A stretch of 59,292 bases of DNA, taken from Clostridiales bacterium. GTDB lineage: Bacteria; Bacillota; Clostridia; Oscillospirales; CAG-272. The translations under genes and the position numbers were made by a program. Shown here piece by piece: positions 1 to 52,760 of the stretch. The stretch is taken from NCBI GenBank assembly GCA_012837425.1, contig DURE01000005.1, positions 1-59,292 on the forward strand, in the 5' to 3' direction. The number at the start of each line of letters is the position of its first letter. The first letter of the stretch is position 1. Below the pieces are notes generated by a model. That model did no database searches. It was given only the letters and a program-made list of their open reading frames with translations, and was not told where the DNA came from.

Positions 1-1745
1 GACGCCGCCTCCCCCCCGGCAGCACGACGAGCCGCAAAATCAATATATTCCGAAAAATTTTCATCAAGACCCGAGAGCGCAAGATATGCCCGGTAGGCCT
101 TCTGCAGCTCGGCCGAGTTCGGATTAACAATAGCCACCGACAGCCCGGCAAAAAGCGCCATGGTAAAGAACGAGGCATTCAGGCTGTCGCGCATCGGCAG
201 CCCAAAGGAAACATTCGAAATGCCAAGCAGGGTGCGTTTTCCCGACGCGCTCAGGGTGGCAACCGTCTTGAGCGTGGTCAGCGCGGCGTCCGGGTCGGCG
301 CAGACAGACATCGCCAGCGGGTCAATCACTATATTTTTGGGGTCAATGCCGTGTTTTTGGGCCTCGGAAATAATTTTTTCGGCGACCCTCAGCCTCCCGG
401 CAACATCAGTAGGTATCCCGTCGTCGTCGAGCGTCAGCCCGACCAGCACCCCGCCGTATTTCTTTGCCAGCGGCAGAATAGCCGAAAGCGATTCGGTTTT
501 GCCCGAGACCGAGTTTATAAGCGGAACCCCGCAACAGACCCGCAGCGCGGCCTCCATCGCCGCCGGATCGGAAGTGTCTATCTGCAGCGGCAGTTTGGTA
601 ATCATCTGCAGCTCGGTTATGATGGTTTTAAGCGCCTCGGCCTCATCTATGCCCGGCAACCCGGCGTTGACGTCAAGAATATCGGCTCCGGCATCGGCCT
701 GAAGCGCGCCCTCCTCGGCAATTTCGCTGTACTCCCCGGCCAGGAGCGCCTCTTTTATCCACTTTTTGCCGGTCGGGTTGATTCGCTCACCCACAAGCAG
801 CGGCTGCTCACCGATTACAAGCGCGTGTGTCGCCGATGAAATCATAGTCAGCTTTTTTTCTGTAATCGGACGCGGAGTTATCCCTTCAAGCGCGCCTACC
901 AACTTCCGGATATATTCGGGCGTGGTGCCGCAGCAGCCCCCCAGCCCCCGGGCGCCGGCTCTTGCCATCTCGCGCATATGTGTGGCATATTCGGCGGGGG
1001 AGACGTCATAGACGGTTTTCCGGTCTTCCAGGTGCGGCATTCCGGCATTAGGCTGTACCACAACCGGCACCGAGGCATATTTTTGCATCTCGGGCAGTAT
1101 GTTTTTCATCTGCTCAGGGCCGAGCGAGCAGTTCATCCCGAGCGCCGCGACGCCGAGCCCCTCAAGTAGCGCCACCACCGCGGCCGGGTTGCTCCCGCTC
1201 ATCATTCTTCCCGACGCGTCAAAAACCACGGTTGCAACAACCGGCAGGTCGCAGGCCTCCTTTGCAGCCAGCACCGCCGCCTTTAGCTCGTATATGTCGT
1301 TCATGGTCTCGACAAGGACAAAATCGGCGCCAGCCTCAGCCCCTATTCTTATCGTCTCGGAAAAGTAACCGACAGCCTCTTCAAACCCGACACCGCCCGG
1401 CCAGCCCACCACTTTCCCGAGCGGGCCGACATCAAGCGCCACCAAAGCTCCGGTATCCCCAACCGCGGCCTTAGCGCAGCATATCCCGGCCCGGATAATA
1501 TTTTCAAGGCAAAACTCACCGGCTTTTGCACCGTATTTGAGCCGGTTGGCGCCGAAGGTGTTTGCCGAGACAACCTCGGCCCCCGACCTGACATACTCCC
1601 GGTGGACCTCGGTAACAATTTCGGGATGGGTTATATTCCAGGTCTCGGGCAGCACTCCGGCAGAAAGGCCGCGGGAGTGCAGCATAGTCCCCAGCCCGCC
1701 GTCAAAAATCACAAATCCTCTGCTCAGTCTTTCTGTTATGCTCAT
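1..1745 (-). CDS. metH: Methionine synthase MetH, N-terminal modules (3' end cut off by window)
   Basis: Cobalamin-dependent methionine synthase, which moves a methyl group from methyltetrahydrofolate to homocysteine in the cytoplasm. The minus strand is open from an ATG at 1745 to the window edge (about 581 codons). Residues 1-290 form the homocysteine-binding barrel. The expected zinc ligands are visible as Cys206 (in NCSLG) and the pair Cys271-Cys272 (in GGCCGT), almost the same numbering as Thermotoga MetH. A pterin-binding domain follows, with GERINPTG and DILDVNAG motifs. The B12 domain, if present, lies outside the window. The start overlaps the metF stop as ATGA, so the two genes are translationally coupled. 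No frameshift is seen. The long plus-strand reading frames here are antisense shadows. Confidence 0.95.
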   Translation of the reverse strand, partial: MSITERLSRGFVIFDGGLGTMLHSRGLSAGVLPETWNITHPEIVTEVHREYVRSGAEVVSANTFGANRLKYGAKAGEFCLENIIRAGICCAKAAVGDTGALVALDVGPLGKVVGWPGGVGFEEAVGYFSETIRIGAEAGADFVLVETMNDIYELKAAVLAAKEACDLPVVATVVFDASGRMMSGSNPAAVVALLEGLGVAALGMNCSLGPEQMKNILPEMQKYASVPVVVQPNAGMPHLEDRKTVYDVSPAEYATHMREMARAGARGLGGCCGTTPEYIRKLVGALEGITPRPITEKKLTMISSATHALVIGEQPLLVGERINPTGKKWIKEALLAGEYSEIAEEGALQADAGADILDVNAGLPGIDEAEALKTIITELQMITKLPLQIDTSDPAAMEAALRVCCGVPLINSVSGKTESLSAILPLAKKYGGVLVGLTLDDDGIPTDVAGRLRVAEKIISEAQKHGIDPKNIVIDPLAMSVCADPDAALTTLKTVATLSASGKRTLLGISNVSFGLPMRDSLNASFFTMALFAGLSVAIVNPNSAELQKAYRAYLALSGLDENFSEYIDFAARRAAGGEAA

Positions 1746-3690: not shown

Positions 3691-5103
3691 TTACCGAAGG
3701 TCTATTCTGTACCCCTCGGGAATTCTTGCCGCCTCCTCGTCGTGCCGGGCGGTATGGTCCATCCACTCCACTCCGAAATCCGACGGGTGCTTTCTTGCCT
3801 CGGGCTTTGGCGACTCGCCGACGTCGCTCTCGTAATATTTCATCAACAGCCCGCGCAGCCCGGCTATATGCGGGTCGTTTTCGTCGTATTTATTCTTTGT
3901 TTCGGGGAAGGAGTCAAAGTAATAATACTTATCCCCGGCCGAGTCGTATATCAGCTTCTCAAAGGCCCCGGCAATCATGTAGACGCCGCCGTTCTCTCTG
4001 CCGTTGTACTGCGAGTACACATAATCGTGTCTGCCCCTGAGCAGGTCAACTCCGTCATATTCCGCCGGGTCATAGTCAATCCCGGCCCAGCTGAGAATTG
4101 TAGGCGCTACGTCGACCAGCGAACAGACGTCGCGGCGGGTTTCCTGCCTTCTGCCCGGGACATGCATTATCATCGGGATATGCGCTGCCGCGTCAAGCAT
4201 GGTGCGCTTTCCCATGCTGTTATAGTCGCCCAGGCATTCGCCGTGGTCGGAAGTAAATATTATCAGCGTGTCGTCGTACATTCCCCTTTCCTTCAGGGTG
4301 TTTATTATCCGGCCTATCTGATAGTCGACAAAAGACACGCAGGCATAATAAAAGTTTTTGAGCTTTTTCGCGTCTGTAGCGCTGATTCCGAGCCGCTCGG
4401 TCCCGTACTTTTTGTTTTGCAGGGGTCTAAACTCTTCAATGTTCTCGGGCATAAAGGGCGCGGGAATGTCCTCGGAGCGGTATAGCTTGTTCCAGGGCGC
4501 CGGCGGGCTGAAGGGCGGATGAGGATGTATAAAAGAGGAAAACAGAAAAACCGGTTTTCGGGGGTCGCAGGACTTGAGGAACTCAACGCTCCGGTCTCCT
4601 ACCCACTGGGTGGGGTGGGCTTCGGCCGGCAGCTGAGACACCTGCGGGACGTAATACATCTCGCTTCTCTGTCCGTTGTAGTCGAAAACATTTCTATAGG
4701 GTGAATTCAGGATAAAATTAGTATAGTCATCGTCAAAATGCGACATTTCCTCCTGCGTGTGGCGGCGGCCGAAACCTATAGGACCGTAGGTGTCCCAGAC
4801 ATAGTGCATCTTTCCGACATTGCAGGAATTATATCCCGCGCCGGTCAGTTTCGCGTAAAGGCCCTCACCCTCATATTTTTTCTTCTTGTTGTTATTGTTG
4901 TTGCCGGTACGCGCCGGGTACTGCCCCGACATCAAAGAGAGCCGGGCCGGCACGCAAACCGGCGAGGGCGTAATACAGCGCTCAAAGACTATCGAATCGG
5001 CCACAAGACGGTCAAGATTAGGGGTCTGAATGAGGGGATTGCCATAAGCCCCGATGGTGTCGTACCTCTGCTGGTCGGTGAAAAGTATCAATACATGCTT
5101 CAT
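3691..5103 (-). CDS. Type I sulfatase (formylglycine-dependent)
   Basis: Arylsulfatase-superfamily hydrolase of 470 residues that cleaves sulfate esters. The N-terminus VLILFTDQQ holds the metal Asp10. Cys50 lies in the signature CVPARLSLMSG (C-x-P-x-R) and would be converted to formylglycine by a maturase not in this window. A second metal motif, TSDHGECLGDY, lies near the middle. No signal peptide is seen, so it is probably cytoplasmic. A run of five Asn and four Lys (residues 68-76) sits just after the catalytic motif. The start overlaps the stop of the preceding small membrane-protein gene as ATGA. It is the last gene of the long opp-linked unit. Substrate unknown; a sulfated sugar or peptide is possible. 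Confidence 0.93.
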   Translation of the reverse strand: MKHVLILFTDQQRYDTIGAYGNPLIQTPNLDRLVADSIVFERCITPSPVCVPARLSLMSGQYPARTGNNNNNKKKKYEGEGLYAKLTGAGYNSCNVGKMHYVWDTYGPIGFGRRHTQEEMSHFDDDYTNFILNSPYRNVFDYNGQRSEMYYVPQVSQLPAEAHPTQWVGDRSVEFLKSCDPRKPVFLFSSFIHPHPPFSPPAPWNKLYRSEDIPAPFMPENIEEFRPLQNKKYGTERLGISATDAKKLKNFYYACVSFVDYQIGRIINTLKERGMYDDTLIIFTSDHGECLGDYNSMGKRTMLDAAAHIPMIMHVPGRRQETRRDVCSLVDVAPTILSWAGIDYDPAEYDGVDLLRGRHDYVYSQYNGRENGGVYMIAGAFEKLIYDSAGDKYYYFDSFPETKNKYDENDPHIAGLRGLLMKYYESDVGESPKPEARKHPSDFGVEWMDHTARHDEEAARIPEGYRIDLR

Positions 5104-5387
5104 CTGTCATTCCCCTTCTCCGGCGCTTGCCGGTTTTTCTTCCTTTCGTAGAACACACAAATCGCGATGCCAAAAGCAGCAGCCAGTACCGCTGCTATGA
5201 CAACGGGTATAAGCCACTCGCTGTTTTCCGCTATTTTCTCAATAAGTAGCTCGGCCAGCGATTCCTCGCTCGGGTCTTCGGTACTTTCGGCAGCAGCGTC
5301 AACCCTGTCGGCAAAAAGCGCCAGTGACAGGGCAACCAAAAACACCGTGGTCAAAAGAAAGAGCGGTTTTTTGCAAGAATAAGTCAT
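5100..5387 (-). CDS. Small membrane-anchored protein (signal peptide plus C-terminal TM)
   Basis: A 95-residue protein I do not recognise. It begins with a typical export signal (Lys pair, hydrophobic stretch, likely cleavage after DRVDA). An acidic Ser/Glu-rich stretch of about 30 residues follows, then a transmembrane helix (residues 59-80) and a basic cytoplasmic tail (YERKKNR). This predicts a small type I membrane protein with a short extracytoplasmic loop. It overlaps the sulfatase start by 4 nt, so it belongs to the same transcript. It may act with the neighbouring lipoprotein or the transporter, but that is inference from position only. Confidence 0.75.
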   Translation of the reverse strand: MTYSCKKPLFLLTTVFLVALSLALFADRVDAAAESTEDPSEESLAELLIEKIAENSEWLIPVVIAAVLAAAFGIAICVFYERKKNRQAPEKGNDR

Positions 5388-5394
5388 GATGCTC

Positions 5395-6144
5395 CTATCT
5401 GCGGTTTTTTCTGACCTGCGCGCGCACCTGCAGCGCTATCTCCACAAGGACGACAAGTACAATAACCCCCCAGGCATACGGGGCGTAAGAGGGTGCACTG
5501 TCCCAATATCCCGGCTTTTTCGGGGGCTGTATGTAGTGAATTTCGGCCAAGCCGTAATCGTGGGCGGGAATGTTCTCGTCATATGGTGCGTCAAGGCAGA
5601 CCCAGCCCGAACTGCCGGGGGTGCTGAGGTATATCCAGACCAAGCCCTCCTCGTCGGTATATGAGGAAAAGACGGCTATTCCCTCTTCCTCGGATGAACT
5701 GTCAATCGCTATGATTTCGCCCGAGCGGGGGTAGGACCAGATATATCTCGGCCCCTCGGGAGGTGGGTCCGAGGCATCTGTAATCTCTTCGGAGTGCTGC
5801 TCGCAAAAGGCGGTATTGTCATAAACCAGCTCCAGCCCCTCCATCCTGACCCAGCCGCCGCCCTCGACCCGGCCCCAGACCTCGCCCCTTTTATCGGTAT
5901 AGTAGTAATCAATGACCAGTATCTCACCCGGCTCATGCCGCCCGAGGGGCTTTTCCCCCGGCTCGGAACAGGCTTCGGCCGGCCCGCCCGCTACCCTGAA
6001 GTTCCGGTCGCAGCCGACAAACTCGTCTGCATGTCTTTTTTCAAAGCTGCCGGCACAGGCTGCAAGCAGGAGCAGCAGTGAGCATGCTGCAATAATCGCT
6101 GCACCAATCCTGGAAATCCGCCGCTTTTTAAATATCAGCTCCAT
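5395..6144 (-). CDS. Hypothetical lipoprotein-like protein with SH3-like segments and C-terminal TM
   Basis: 249 residues from the ATG at 6144. The frame is open further upstream, but AGGTGA right before this ATG overlaps the stop of the previous gene and marks coupled initiation. The N-terminus is basic (KKRR), then a hydrophobic stretch ending in a lipobox-like LLAACAG. Two similar acidic segments follow (around residues 70-110 and 145-185), each with a Gly-Trp-Val core such as GGWVRMEG and SGWVCLD, like bacterial SH3-type repeats. One TM helix sits near the C-terminus with a basic tail. Having both a lipobox and a C-terminal TM is unusual, so lipidation is uncertain. Function unknown. Confidence 0.72.
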   Translation of the reverse strand: MELIFKKRRISRIGAAIIAACSLLLLLAACAGSFEKRHADEFVGCDRNFRVAGGPAEACSEPGEKPLGRHEPGEILVIDYYYTDKRGEVWGRVEGGGWVRMEGLELVYDNTAFCEQHSEEITDASDPPPEGPRYIWSYPRSGEIIAIDSSSEEEGIAVFSSYTDEEGLVWIYLSTPGSSGWVCLDAPYDENIPAHDYGLAEIHYIQPPKKPGYWDSAPSYAPYAWGVIVLVVLVEIALQVRAQVRKNRR

Positions 6145-6145
6145 T

Positions 6146-6439
6146 TCACCTGAACCAAACATATATGCAAAACAGCACAAATGCCGCAAAAACCACGAAA
6201 AACACACCACCTGCCAGCAGCGCGGCTAAAACCACCCCGCGGAGCAGAGCGCGCTCCTCTTTTTTGGTCAGGGTAATTTTCTCAGGGCCGCCATTAACCG
6301 AGTCCGATTCAACGCCGGGCTTGTTTTTGTCGATTTTGCCGTTATACCACGGCATGCCGTCGACATTCATATTTGCTATTGTCCTGCCGTCGTCAAACTC
6401 GTCGTCCCGCCGCTTTTTTTTGCCTTCTTTTCGTGGCAC
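6146..6439 (-). CDS. Small single-pass membrane protein
   Basis: 97 residues from a GTG start at 6439, chosen because AGGAGG lies 8 nt upstream; an ATG directly beside that site is too close. The N-terminal two-thirds is highly charged (KEGKKKRRDDEFDDG) and has no signal peptide. One strong TM helix (about residues 70-95) ends the protein, giving a cytoplasmic domain with a C-terminal anchor. It follows oppF by 54 bp and precedes the lipoprotein gene by 1 bp, so it is co-transcribed. Family not recognised. Confidence 0.72.
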   Translation of the reverse strand: MPRKEGKKKRRDDEFDDGRTIANMNVDGMPWYNGKIDKNKPGVESDSVNGGPEKITLTKKEERALLRGVVLAALLAGGVFFVVFAAFVLFCIYVWFR

Positions 6440-45220: not shown

Positions 45221-45493
45221 ATGAAAATCAAAAACGGATTTATACTATCAAGGGTAGGCGACGATATGGTAGCCGTGGCGACCGGTGAGCTGTCGGGTGA
45301 GTTTTCAAACCTGATAGTATTGAACAGTGTCGGCACCTTTTTGTGGGAGAAGCTCTCGGCAGAGGGTGGGGCTGACGCGGAAAGCCTTGCCTCGGCAGTG
45401 CTTGAGGAATACGAAATCGACGAAAAAACCGCGCGGGCCGACATTTCGGTTTTTTTGGACAGGCTCAGCGCCGCCGGAATACTCGAGAACTAA
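45221..45493 (+). CDS. PqqD-family protein (RiPP recognition element)
   Basis: 90-residue stand-alone PqqD-domain protein. N-terminal beta strands (FILSRVGDDMVAVATGE), the family hallmark LNSVGTFLWEKL, then helices with SLASAVLEEYEIDEKTARADISVFLDRLSAAGIL complete the winged-helix fold. PqqD domains bind the leader of a ribosomal peptide and deliver it to a modifying enzyme. No precursor peptide, radical SAM or other maturase is visible within several kb, so the partner must be elsewhere. SD GCAGGAGC precedes the ATG. A strong terminator follows, so it is monocistronic. Confidence 0.9.
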   Translation: MKIKNGFILSRVGDDMVAVATGELSGEFSNLIVLNSVGTFLWEKLSAEGGADAESLASAVLEEYEIDEKTARADISVFLDRLSAAGILEN

Positions 45494-47943: not shown

Positions 47944-48978
47944 CTATCCCCCGATATTTACCGAATGGACAGTTGCCGCGCCGCTGGCCAGCACATTGTC
48001 TGTCGGTATGTAGATGGCGTCAACATCTTTTAGGGCAATAAAGGCGTTCTGAATGTCGTTTAAGTCATTGATGCCCTTGACCACATATGTGTATCCCTTG
48101 GCCTCGCAGTGCTGCTTGGCCAGCCTTATCTGGAATTCGGAGTTGGTCTCGGCCGAGGTGTAGAGCAGGCCTATTGTGATGTCTTCCTTGCCGAGCAGCT
48201 CGGCGATAAGGTCTATCTGGTCGGCCACCGGGTTGATGTCCGACACGCCGGTGACATTGCCGCCGGGGTTATCCATCGAGGCCACAAGTCCGGCGTCAAC
48301 CGGGTCGGTGACGGCGCAGAAGACGACCGGAATTTCTTCGGTGGCCGCAGCCGCCGCCTGGGAGGAGGAGGTGGCGATGGTGTAGATGAGGTCAACCTTC
48401 TTGGAGACAAAGGTTTCGGCAATGGTTATGTTGTTGGCCTGCTCGCCGGCGGCGTTCTCGTCAAGAATGGTGACCGTCTTGCCGGCGGCGGCCATTCTGA
48501 CCGAGAGCTGGTCCTGGAAGCCCCGGTTAGAGTCGTCAAGCGCGACATGCTGAACCAGCTGAAGGATGCCGACCGTAAAGTTGCCGCCCGAGGACACTAT
48601 AGCCGAATCCACACGTGTTACCTCAAGCGTGGAGTCACCGGTCACCTTTGCCAGAACGCTCTCGGGAATCTTAAAGCCTATCTCATCGGCCACCGAGGTA
48701 TTGACTGTAAGCGCGGGGCTGGGGTCGAACCAGACCGGCATTTTGGAGACGTCGGCACCCTCAAGCAGGATGTCGGCGGCCATGTCGCCGGCCCTGACGC
48801 CAAGGTTGTAGTAATTGACGCCGTAGGTGGCAATGCCGCAGATATCGTTCATGTTGGTCTCGCCGCAGACAATAGGGATGTTGTAGCCGGCCCCGCTGCC
48901 GCAGGAAGTCAGCCCAAAGAGGACCGTGCCGGCAAGGATGCACAGGAGCACCCGCACGACTGAGCTCTTGGATTTCAT
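47944..48978 (-). CDS. trpX: Circularly permuted ABC_sub_bind (TrpX-like) binding lipoprotein
   Basis: 344-residue lipoprotein (lipobox LTSC, Cys26) of the PF04392 binding-protein family, but with its two halves in swapped order. Residues 33-112 (from NIPIVCGETN through GIATYGVNYYNLG to IPESVLAKV) correspond to the normal C-terminal end. A linker (about 113-132) follows. Residues 133-344 (FTVGILQLVQHVALDDSNRG, ENAAGEQANNITIAE, CAVTDPVDAGLVASM, DAIYIPTDNVLASGAATVHS) correspond to the normal N-terminal and middle part. The protein ends VNIGG exactly where a normal family member continues into the IP-V-GE segment. The frame is intact. It heads the trpXYZ operon behind a T-box. SD AAGGAG precedes the ATG. 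Confidence 0.9.
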   Translation of the reverse strand: MKSKSSVVRVLLCILAGTVLFGLTSCGSGAGYNIPIVCGETNMNDICGIATYGVNYYNLGVRAGDMAADILLEGADVSKMPVWFDPSPALTVNTSVADEIGFKIPESVLAKVTGDSTLEVTRVDSAIVSSGGNFTVGILQLVQHVALDDSNRGFQDQLSVRMAAAGKTVTILDENAAGEQANNITIAETFVSKKVDLIYTIATSSSQAAAAATEEIPVVFCAVTDPVDAGLVASMDNPGGNVTGVSDINPVADQIDLIAELLGKEDITIGLLYTSAETNSEFQIRLAKQHCEAKGYTYVVKGINDLNDIQNAFIALKDVDAIYIPTDNVLASGAATVHSVNIGG

Positions 48979-49057: not shown

Positions 49058-49376
49058 AACAAAAAGTCTCTGTATTTTTGCAAATACAGAGACGAATAAT
49101 TATCCCGGCAAAGACAGCCGAATAAATATCGTGTTACCACTCTGCTTCACCGCAGCCTTGCGGATGTGGCCTTACGGGGCGCAATCACGTCCCTGCGATA
49201 TAACGGTCGCACCCGTCGTATCCTACTTGGCGGCCCTCAACCTTATGTGATAGCCGTTTTTTCAGTACGAAGCTCCCGGAACGAACCAAATACGCTACTT
49301 GCCGCTGTCTCGCACCGACCGACAGCTCTCTTTAGGCTTTTTCCGTATTATTTTTTCCGATCACAGCCTTTGATGC
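49058..49376 (-). promoter_or_regulatory. T-box riboswitch leader of the trpXYZ-type operon
   Basis: Read on the minus strand: a stem I with base TGTGAT/ATCACA, an apical hairpin CTGTC-GGTCGGTGCGA-GACAG (AGAGAG before it, GGTG in the loop), the T-box sequence GCAGAGTGGTAACACG, and a terminator with a 12-bp stem GTCTCTGTATTT (49066-49077 with 49082-49093) ending in TTTTT. Uncharged tRNA would stabilise the antiterminator and switch on the importer. A TGG triplet (49288-49286) after the apical hairpin is a candidate Trp specifier, but I cannot fold the leader rigorously. Confidence 0.92.
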
Positions 49377-49564: not shown

Positions 49565-50236
49565 ATGAACCGGATTTGCGACTATTTACCCTTCTGGAAA
49601 GACCTTAGCGAGGACCAGAGGAGCCTGCTCCAAAACTCGGCCCGGGAGCGCTCGTACAAAAAGGGAGAAATTCTTCACGGCGGCTCGGAGGACTGCGTCG
49701 GACTTGTTTTGGTCAAGCGCGGGCAGCTAAGGGTGTATACCGTCTCGGACGAGGGCAAGGAGCTGACACTCTACCGGCTGTTTGAGCGCGATATGTGCCT
49801 GTTTTCGGCCTCCTGCGTGCTGCCGAGTGTCCAGTTTGACATAATGGTCTTGGCTGAGGCCGACTCCGAGGTATATATGATACCTCCGCTGCTTTACAGA
49901 ACGCTCATGGATAGCTCAATTGCGGTGGCGAATTACACAAATGAGCTTATGGCCTCCCACTTCTCGGAGGTCATGTGGCTGATGGATAAAATTATGAACA
50001 AAAAGCTCGACTCGCGCCTGGCCGCCTTTCTGCTCGAGGAGCGCGAGCTTGTCGGGAGCGATACTATAAAAATCACCCACGAGCAGATTGCAAACCATCT
50101 GGGCAGCATACGCGAGGTGGTGACCCGGGTGCTCAATTACCTTTGCAGTGAAGGCATGGTCAGGCTTGGCCGGGGGAGCATCCTGCTGACCGACCTCAAA
50201 AGGCTGGCCGAGCTGGCCGAGTCAAGCCGGCGGTAG
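49565..50236 (+). CDS. Crp/Fnr-family transcription regulator
   Basis: 223 residues. Residues 1-125 are a cyclic-nucleotide-binding-like beta-roll (SYKKGEILHGGSEDCVGLVLVKRGQLRVYTVSDEG), and residues 150-215 a Crp-type helix-turn-helix (ITHEQIANHLGSIREVVTRVLNYLCSEGMVRLGRG). Four Cys lie in the sensor part (Cys5, the Cys in EDCVG, and two in MCLFSASC), spaced unlike the Fnr iron-sulfur set. It may sense redox or a reactive sulfur/oxygen signal rather than cAMP. It lies 85 bp before the sulfur-handling fusion gene on the same strand and probably controls it. GGAGGG precedes the ATG. Confidence 0.93.
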   Translation: MNRICDYLPFWKDLSEDQRSLLQNSARERSYKKGEILHGGSEDCVGLVLVKRGQLRVYTVSDEGKELTLYRLFERDMCLFSASCVLPSVQFDIMVLAEADSEVYMIPPLLYRTLMDSSIAVANYTNELMASHFSEVMWLMDKIMNKKLDSRLAAFLLEERELVGSDTIKITHEQIANHLGSIREVVTRVLNYLCSEGMVRLGRGSILLTDLKRLAELAESSRR

Positions 50237-50321
50237 GGCGCTTTTGTGTAGCATTGCTACCGACAAGGCAGGCCTTTTGTGGTATCCTTTGCTTAACTTT
50301 AGCATATGGGAGCAATACGAA

Positions 50322-52760
50322 ATGAAAACAGTGATAATCGGAGGGGTTGCGGGGGGCGCGGGCTGCGCCGCGAGGCTTCGCCGGCTCGACGAGAGTGCCG
50401 AAATTATAGTTTTTGAGAGGGGCGAATATATTTCCTTTGCCAACTGCGGGTTGCCCTATCATATAGGCGGGGTTATCAGGGACAGAGATGACCTGCTGCT
50501 CCAGACCCCGGAGGAAATGAGCCGGAAATTCAGTGTTGACGTGCGGGTAAGACACGAGGTTGCAGCCATCAACCGTGAGCGCAAGACTGTAACAGTCAAG
50601 CGCCTTGAGACCGGAGAGCTGTACGACGAGCCCTACGACAAGCTGGTTATCGCAACCGGCTCCACGCCACTCATACCGCCTATACCGGGGGCAGACTCCC
50701 CCCGGGTCCGCACGCTCTGGACGCTGCCCGACACCGACGCGATAAAGGCACTTATACAGAATAATGCCCGGCGCGCGGTGGTGGTGGGCGGCGGGTTTGT
50801 CGGGCTTGAAGCCGCCGAGAATTTGCACCGCGCAGGGCTTGAGGTTTCGATTGTAGAGCTGGGCAACCAGGTCATGCCCCCGCTTGACTTTGAGATGGCG
50901 CAGCTTCTGCACGAGCATATAGCCGAGAGGGGCGTCGGACTCTACCTGGGCGACGGGGTTGTCGAATTTTCTGACAGGCAAGAGCTTGTCGAGGTGAGGC
51001 TTGCGAGCGGCAGGAGCATTGAGGCCGACTTTGTGGTTCTCTCGGTCGGCGTTCGCCCGAACAGCGCGCTTGCCAGGGCCGCGGGGCTTGAGCTCGGCGG
51101 ACGGGGCGGCATTGTGGTAAATGAAAAAATGCAGACCTCAGACCCCGACATATACGCGGTGGGCGACGTGGCCGAGGTGCGCGATTTTGTCTTCGGCGAG
51201 CCGGCCATGCTGCCGCTGGCCGGTCCAGCCAACAAGCAGGGGCGGGTTGCGGCAAACAATATTGCCGGTATTGATGATTCCTACCGCGCAACTCAGGGCT
51301 CGTCTGTTGCCAAAGTCTTCGACCTTACCGCCGCCTCCACCGGGGCAAACGAAAAGCAGCTTGTGCGGCGCGGGCTTGTGAGAGGACAGGATTACGAGGC
51401 TGCCATCATCACACAGAACTCTCACGCCGGATATTATCCCGGCGCGCGTCCCATGACCCTGAAGCTGCTGTTCTCCGCCGACGGCAGGAAAATATTCGGC
51501 GCTCAGATAGTTGGCCGGGAGGGTGTCGACAAGCGGATTGACACAATAGGCGCCGCTCTGCGCCTGGGGGCCACGGTCGGCGACCTTGAGCAGCTTGAGT
51601 TTGCGTACGCTCCGCCCTATTCGTCGGCCAAGGACCCGGTAAATATGCTGGGCTTTGTCGCCGGGAACATACTCTCGGGCAGAGTGCGCTTTTGCAGCTG
51701 GGACACAATAGAAAAGGATAAAAATTCGCTGGTACTCGATGTGCGCGAGGAGGCCGAGCTTGAGGCCTATTCGCTGCCCGGCTCGGTTCATATCCCGCTC
51801 GGGGGGCTGCGACGCCGCGCCGGCGAGCTTGACCGCTCAAAGCATATAATCATCATGTGCGCCATCGGCGTGAGGGCCTACAATGCCGCGCGGATTCTCA
51901 TGCAGCACGGCTTTGAAAAGGTATCCGTATACCCCGGCGGGGCGCGGTTTTACCGCTCGACACATAGCGAAGGGGAAAAAATGAAACCAAAGGTCATATA
52001 TTCGGGACCGGCGGCCGAAGACAAGCAAACACCGACCGCCGCCGTCAAGCTGGATTGCAGCGGCCTGCAATGCCCCGGCCCGATAATGAAGGTTTTTGAG
52101 AAACTACGGGAGATGGGGGAGGGCGAGACGCTCGAGGTTTCGGCGTCAGACCCCGGCTTTATCCGCGACATTGAGGCCTGGTGCCGTCGGACCCAAAACA
52201 TACTGCTGAGTTCCGGCGAGCGCGACGGCAGCTATGTGGCGCTAATCAAAAAAGGAACTCAAGAAGACGCGCCGGTGGTGCGCGACACCCCCGAGGGGAA
52301 AACTATTGTCGTGTTCTCGGGCGACCTTGACCGGGTGCTGGCCAGCTTTATTATAGCAAACGGAGCCGCCGCCATGGGGCGTAAAGTCACCATGTTCTTC
52401 ACCTTCTGGGGGCTCAACGTTCTGCGCCGGCCTAGGAAGGTTAAGGTCAGGAAGAGCTTTATCGAGCGTATGTTCGGGGCAATGCTGCCGCGAGGCTCGG
52501 GAAAACTGAAGCTGTCTAAAATGAACATGGCCGGCATGGGCACTACCATGATGAAGAAAATCATGAAGGCCAAAAATGTCGACCCGCTCGAGACTCTTAT
52601 CGAAAATGCCCTGAAAAACGGCGTGAAGATAATAGCCTGCACCATGAGCATGGATATAATGGGAATTAAAAAGGAAGAGCTTATCGAGGGCATAGATTTT
52701 GCCGGCGTGGGTACCTATCTGGGTGACGCCGAGGATTCCGATGTGAATCTGTTTATATAA
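50322..52760 (+). CDS. CoA-disulfide reductase/rhodanese/TusA/DsrE-like four-module fusion
   Basis: 812 residues from the ATG at 50322 (GGGAG about 10 nt before). Module 1 (1-440) is a pyridine nucleotide-disulfide oxidoreductase of the CoADR/Npsr type: VIIGGVAGGAGCAARLRR at the FAD site and the single active Cys42 in SFANCGLPY. Module 2 (about 455-545) is a rhodanese with Cys513 in IIMCAIGVRA. Module 3 (about 575-645) is TusA-like with CSGLQCPGP (Cys579, Cys584). Module 4 (about 660-812) is DsrE/DsrF-like with CTMSMDIMG. Together it could reduce persulfides or CoA-disulfides and relay sulfane sulfur. Cytoplasmic. Confidence 0.94.
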   Translation: MKTVIIGGVAGGAGCAARLRRLDESAEIIVFERGEYISFANCGLPYHIGGVIRDRDDLLLQTPEEMSRKFSVDVRVRHEVAAINRERKTVTVKRLETGELYDEPYDKLVIATGSTPLIPPIPGADSPRVRTLWTLPDTDAIKALIQNNARRAVVVGGGFVGLEAAENLHRAGLEVSIVELGNQVMPPLDFEMAQLLHEHIAERGVGLYLGDGVVEFSDRQELVEVRLASGRSIEADFVVLSVGVRPNSALARAAGLELGGRGGIVVNEKMQTSDPDIYAVGDVAEVRDFVFGEPAMLPLAGPANKQGRVAANNIAGIDDSYRATQGSSVAKVFDLTAASTGANEKQLVRRGLVRGQDYEAAIITQNSHAGYYPGARPMTLKLLFSADGRKIFGAQIVGREGVDKRIDTIGAALRLGATVGDLEQLEFAYAPPYSSAKDPVNMLGFVAGNILSGRVRFCSWDTIEKDKNSLVLDVREEAELEAYSLPGSVHIPLGGLRRRAGELDRSKHIIIMCAIGVRAYNAARILMQHGFEKVSVYPGGARFYRSTHSEGEKMKPKVIYSGPAAEDKQTPTAAVKLDCSGLQCPGPIMKVFEKLREMGEGETLEVSASDPGFIRDIEAWCRRTQNILLSSGERDGSYVALIKKGTQEDAPVVRDTPEGKTIVVFSGDLDRVLASFIIANGAAAMGRKVTMFFTFWGLNVLRRPRKVKVRKSFIERMFGAMLPRGSGKLKLSKMNMAGMGTTMMKKIMKAKNVDPLETLIENALKNGVKIIACTMSMDIMGIKKEELIEGIDFAGVGTYLGDAEDSDVNLFI

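Follow-up and report, generated by a model that had tools for sequence, protein, structure and literature searches.

Is the solute-binding protein (SBP) gene upstream of an ABC permease in this window, the stretch of 59,292 nucleotides analysed here, genuinely circularly permuted, and if so, is the rearranged protein likely to be used? A first-pass annotation had described it as a circularly permuted, TrpX-type lipoprotein that is presumably used, without giving a strand. The open reading frame lies on the minus strand and is intact, with an ATG start and no internal stop (Table 1), and its product meets the criteria for a bacterial lipoprotein, namely a signal peptide followed by a lipobox cysteine (LTSC, Cys26). 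Natural circular permutation within a family that is still recognisable by sequence is uncommon. We consider it very likely (probability about 0.86) that this gene encodes a functional, naturally circularly permuted Type I (cluster B) SBP of the PF04392/TrpX family, an assessment made without binding, transport or expression data.

Table 1. Coordinates of the permuted gene, the parts of its protein and the associated operon features in the window.
Feature	Position	Strand	Basis
Circularly permuted PF04392 lipoprotein gene, 344 aa	47944..48978	-	profile matches and homologues
Signal peptide, residues 1-25	48904..48978	-	sequence
Lipobox LTSC, Cys26	48901-48903	-	Cys26 invariant in 11-row alignment
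Residues 33-110, C-terminal third of ordinary PF04392 proteins (profile 206-288)	48649..48882	-	profile and structure alignments
Linker, residues 111-132, old C-terminus to old N-terminus	48583..48648	-	alignments and model
Residues 133-344, N-terminal and middle parts of ordinary proteins (profile 2-207)	47947..48582	-	profile and structure alignments
Cognate permease, BPD_transp_2, PF02653	46858..47862	-	profile match
Cognate ABC ATPase, PF00005	46059..46865	-	profile match; position conserved
T-box leader, RF00230, full-length match	49111..49373	-	covariance model
T-box intrinsic terminator, GTCTCTGTATTTGCAAAAATACAGAGAC-TTTTT	49061..49093	-	direct sequence reading
T-box specifier UUC (Phe)	49285-49283	-	codon position read against Rfam consensus alignment

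The order of the two parts is established by profile and structure alignments. The protein matches PF04392 (Pfam) in two stretches with an E-value of 9.4e-58 and 196.2 bits, well over the curated cut-off of 25.9, so that membership of the family is met. When all six frames were searched, profile positions 206-288 matched nucleotides 48897-48646, at the N-terminal end of the protein, and positions 2-207 matched nucleotides 48573-47956, at its C-terminal end. The usual N-to-C order of the family is thus not met, and the protein is homologous in sequence while permuted in topology. Since the two blocks cover the profile once, the gene represents a permutation and not a fusion of two copies. The solved relatives 3lft, 6hni and 3lkv each align to the query as two swapped blocks, with query residues 133-341 corresponding to their N-terminal two thirds and residues 33-111 to their C-terminal third. 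A single collinear PF04392 alignment, which would have refuted the permutation, was looked for and none is present. The permutation claimed by the first-pass annotation therefore holds, and the checks that it had proposed (swapped profile matches, orthologues with the same order and comparison of a predicted structure with those of the family) were run, yielding two matches in swapped order, 19 other contigs with the permuted order, and a two-lobed fold with permuted element order. The order is shown; function is inferred in the absence of expression data, though the presumption that the gene is used is supported. One detail failed: the Asn-Ile pair noted at both cut points is not a signature of the event, as the corresponding residues at the start of homologues vary (YNIP, PMVP, GPFP, NKLP), and on the same grounds an Asn-Ile repeat was rejected as a scar of duplication.

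The permuted order is not confined to this contig. When 295 genomes of the window's family were searched at the protein level, 14 of them, from 9 genera, matched along the permuted protein (one of these, G253, only over residues 10-296), and matches to ordinary PF04392 proteins were mostly confined to query residues 125-340. A scan of GTDB genomes, in which the order was verified by placing the two protein parts separately, returned 18 permuted loci, 6 of them additional to the family search. Overall, 20 permuted loci are known to us including the window, the 19 others being contigs from uncultured Clostridia MAGs (sources include a digester, roe deer, sheep, water buffalo and water deer) whose proteins are 59-87% identical to that of the window. 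The lipobox cysteine, the linker and the end of the protein are common to all 16 homologues that were aligned with it. Among related pairs with unsaturated dS, dN/dS over the whole gene is 0.06-0.17, showing that purifying selection acts across the joined frame. Samples of the order and class were searched for permuted relatives outside the family, though not the whole phylum, and matches were found only inside the family. No relatives were found in viral contigs, and a viral carrier was rejected for this reason. At one of the 20 loci (L067, from G253) a stop and a change of frame interrupt the permuted gene, at 4441-5485; the MAG is named Candidatus Colimorpha enterica, a name that NCBI puts in Bacteroidota, yet the G253 genome falls in the window's family. 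Records of this family are labelled Clostridia, Clostridiales or Oscillospiraceae.

Structure prediction indicates that the permuted chain still folds as a two-lobed clamp. An AlphaFold model based on 17 permuted sequences shows the usual two-lobed fold with a mean pLDDT of 86.4 and a pTM of 0.83, with low confidence in the first 5 residues and a value of about 58 for the last block. For comparison we modelled the group of L068, a homologue with ordinary chain order from an uncultured Clostridia bacterium (CAMAGA010000037.1), at a pLDDT of 94.4 and a pTM of 0.86. Every secondary-structure element of the L068 model has a counterpart in the permuted model, where the order is 17-23, 1-16. In these models, the cut falls between the third and fourth C-lobe strands, in the loop that comes after the intervening helix, and the linker is predicted to be mostly without regular structure. 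The L068 model aligns with 6hni/6hnj over 288 residues (Z about 35), whereas the sequential alignment of the permuted model with the same structures is limited to 207-209 residues (Z 16.6-16.8), which is what a permuted chain should give. The permuted model is 34-37% identical to ordinary PF04392 structures.

The genomic context of the permuted gene is that of an importer under T-box control. In 17 of the 18 named loci the permuted gene is directly followed by the permease and ATPase genes, encoded on the same strand, and in the remaining one the contig ends before them. The T-box that had been proposed upstream of the operon also held: the leader matches RF00230 over model positions 1-219 (E 9.4e-19, 84 bits) and, despite scoring below the Rfam gathering score of 93, satisfies the criteria of a full-length match, specifier, antiterminator core and terminator. 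With default settings, a scan of the window names no RNA family, as 84 bits falls under that gathering score. Among 13 other permuted loci analysed with the covariance model, 8 have a T-box leader upstream, and several relatives score above 93; the T-box core motif was seen in 13 of the 18 named loci. With the Rfam consensus as the reference for codon position, the window, L096, L101 and L102 have the specifier UUC (Phe), whereas L097, L098, L104, L105 and L106 have UAC (Tyr). In L062, a 21-bp unit is repeated about 10 times (6024-6244) between the permuted SBP gene and the permease. No permuted gene was found in G002, a genome of the same genus that is 83% complete (G002:C19, L049, L109); it carries an ordinary PF04392 SBP, permease and ATPase behind a T-box with specifier UAC.

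What the protein binds can be addressed through the pocket positions on which specificity depends in CD0873, VC_1101 and SP1069 (PMC6816091). Residues E40 and Y56, both within the segment of residues 33-110, correspond to Glu263 and Tyr279 of CD0873 and are invariant in an 11-row alignment of permuted proteins, so that the CD0873-type criterion is met. The position of SP1069 Gln284, which marks the tryptophan specificity of TrpX, is occupied by Tyr56, and this criterion is not met; a tyrosine here is found in Tyr and Phe binders (PMC6816091). Likewise, the permuted protein scores 254.7 bits against the TrpX equivalog NF041285 (tryptophan SBP), under its cut-off of 390. Unpermuted L068 also falls under this cut-off (256.7 bits), and therefore permutation alone is not the cause of the miss. 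The TrpX-type label of the first-pass annotation thus holds for the family, while we infer that the ligand is more likely to be Tyr or Phe than Trp, although there are no binding data. Our best reading, likely but inferred from sequence without binding or transport data, is a T-box-controlled Tyr/Phe importer. The exact ligand remains open because the window's specifier is UUC (Phe) while its pocket has the pattern of a tyrosine binder.

To examine the origin of the permutation, trees were built after the permuted proteins had been reordered in silico. In the maximum-likelihood tree, all 19 permuted rows form one clade (bootstrap/SH-aLRT 96/94, recovered in 97% of 200 bootstrap trees), and L068 joins this clade at 100/99. 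A second tree that included ordinary paralogues from the window's family agrees on both the permuted clade and L068. In a permease tree L068 groups with the permuted loci, the permuted ones not being resolved as one side of a branch. L068 is 65% and 63% identical to the permuted protein over the two parts and resembles the permuted proteins in operon order and pocket residues, differing in its ordinary chain order. L068 contains the same motifs in their ordinary order: ...SQVHSVNMESIKVPIVCGETGMNDACG... spans precisely the point at which permuted chains end (VHSVNIGG) and begin (YNIPIVCGE). The permuted proteins form one clade with an unpermuted sister, and a single permutation in an L068-like ancestor accounts for these data. 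Tandem SBP gene copies are seen in ordinary relatives, which makes a route through duplication and truncation plausible; we consider tandem duplication with subsequent loss of the outer parts likely, but this is inferred and no sequence scar proves it. A remnant of a signal peptide in the linkers, a possible trace of such a route, was sought in the homologue alignment and rejected, as no hydrophobic stretch of that kind occurs there.

These observations suggest the following scenario. The chain would have been opened once, in the ancestor shared by a single clade of this uncultured Clostridia family, at a C-lobe surface loop that connects the helix behind strand 3 to strand 4. Through the inferred duplication and loss of outer parts, the C-terminal segment would have moved behind the signal peptide, with a linker of about 22 residues connecting the old ends. 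The clamp fold is predicted to be retained, with pocket residues contributed by both segments. The protein would supply the operon's permease and ATPase with an aromatic amino acid, Tyr and/or Phe being the most likely, and uncharged tRNA-Phe or tRNA-Tyr may switch the operon on via the T-box, as inferred from the specifier. Judging from the chain order and the model, the lipid anchor would sit on the C-lobe via a short tether rather than on the N-lobe.

Among known systems, CD0873 of C. difficile (6hni), VC_1101 (3lkv) and SP1069/TrpX (3lft) are Type I SBPs of PF04392 whose bound ligands were Tyr, Phe and Trp. They share with the permuted protein the family, fold elements and pocket positions (CD0873 Glu263 and Tyr279 are kept), and differ in that the permuted protein has its last quarter first, its old termini joined by a linker and its anchor on the other lobe. 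TrpX of S. suis is likewise under T-box control (PMC9382623). The first-pass annotation had called natural permutation of such a protein a rare event, which we refine in that one natural precedent was found in the open-access literature searched, and others may exist. This is TpMglB-2 (Tp0684; 5jx2, 6bgc) of T. pallidum, a permuted glucose-binding lipoprotein for which a Type Ic / cluster Bc was proposed (PMC4990184). The first three N-lobe strands of TpMglB-2 are at its C-terminus (PMC4990184), and thus its cut lies between strands 3 and 4 of the N-lobe. Both proteins are Type I lipoprotein SBPs that were permuted naturally, with the break falling between strands 3 and 4 of a lobe, and both need a fourth lobe crossover. 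They differ in family, ligand and the lobe that is cut; in addition, the moved part of TpMglB-2 matches ordinary relatives poorly in sequence, whereas the PF04392 case has an unpermuted sister of about 65% identity. Of the tests for Type Ic / cluster Bc, that of a permuted Type I fold is met, by the predicted element order and the match to 6bgc, while that of an N-lobe cut with three N-lobe strands at the C-terminus is not, the cut being in the C-lobe.

Three alternatives to our reading merit discussion. The permuted chain could be used as a domain-swapped dimer, a sensor or an adhesin instead of a monomeric transport SBP. Permuted proteins are able to swap segments, and CD0873 also acts as an adhesin (PMC6816091). 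We regard this as very unlikely given the confident monomer model (pTM 0.83), the permease and ATPase directly next in every locus long enough to show them, the retention of transport-SBP pocket residues, and the precedent of TpMglB-2, which is comparable in topology and closes on its ligand as a monomer (PMC4990184). Alternatively, the protein could be a member or close relative of the TpMglB-2 group, in which case no independent permutation took place. In favor of this, a collinear alignment of the permuted model with 6bgc extends over 255 residues (3..317 to 6..377, Z 15.6, rmsd 3.8), and both are lipoproteins of host-associated bacteria. However, identity to 6bgc is only 14%, compared with 34-37% for ordinary PF04392 structures, the tree makes the permuted protein sister to an unpermuted PF04392 protein, and the published cut of TpMglB-2 is in the other lobe (PMC4990184); we regard such kinship, too, as very unlikely. 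We infer that the collinear match reflects an exchange of pseudo-symmetric lobes, which the alignment output does not itself state, and that the two permutations are, with high likelihood, independent and topologically equivalent. Finally, an assembly or binning artefact, in which parts of one or two SBP genes were joined in the wrong order, is all but excluded, even though all sequences are MAGs and tandem SBP copies frequent in ordinary relatives (L069, L071, L080) could mislead an assembler, because the 19 further contigs, from varied samples, show the identical order, signal peptide and linker included, at 59-87% identity, the window's protein is the sole PF04392 protein found in its own genome, and purifying selection spans the joined frame.

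Returning to a functional permuted SBP, the permuted clade and its sister of about 65% identity with the same type of operon constitute a before-and-after pair, and therefore the effect of anchor and chain-end position on affinity, hinge motion and permease docking becomes testable in ABC importers. For permuted biosensors of aromatic amino acids, the protein also provides a natural template, and it illustrates that annotation from family matches alone conceals such rearrangements. A bolder reading, which we raise only as a possibility, is that Type I binding lipoproteins have been permuted independently at least twice at the pseudo-symmetric strand 3/4 position and that the change seen here is adaptive. 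If so, moving the anchor to the C-lobe would alter how the clamp sits, closes or docks on the permease, and permuted proteins may be a recurrent, under-recognised class among anchored SBPs.

Two other open reading frames of the window lie on the plus strand. A 90-aa open reading frame at 45221-45493 resembles the PqqD-type chaperones of lasso peptide clusters (E 3.4e-07, under the curated cut-off). An 838-aa open reading frame at 50244-52760 joins a CoA-disulfide reductase to a DsrE2-like C-terminal domain, and is adjoined by a CRP/FNR-type regulator at 49565-50236.
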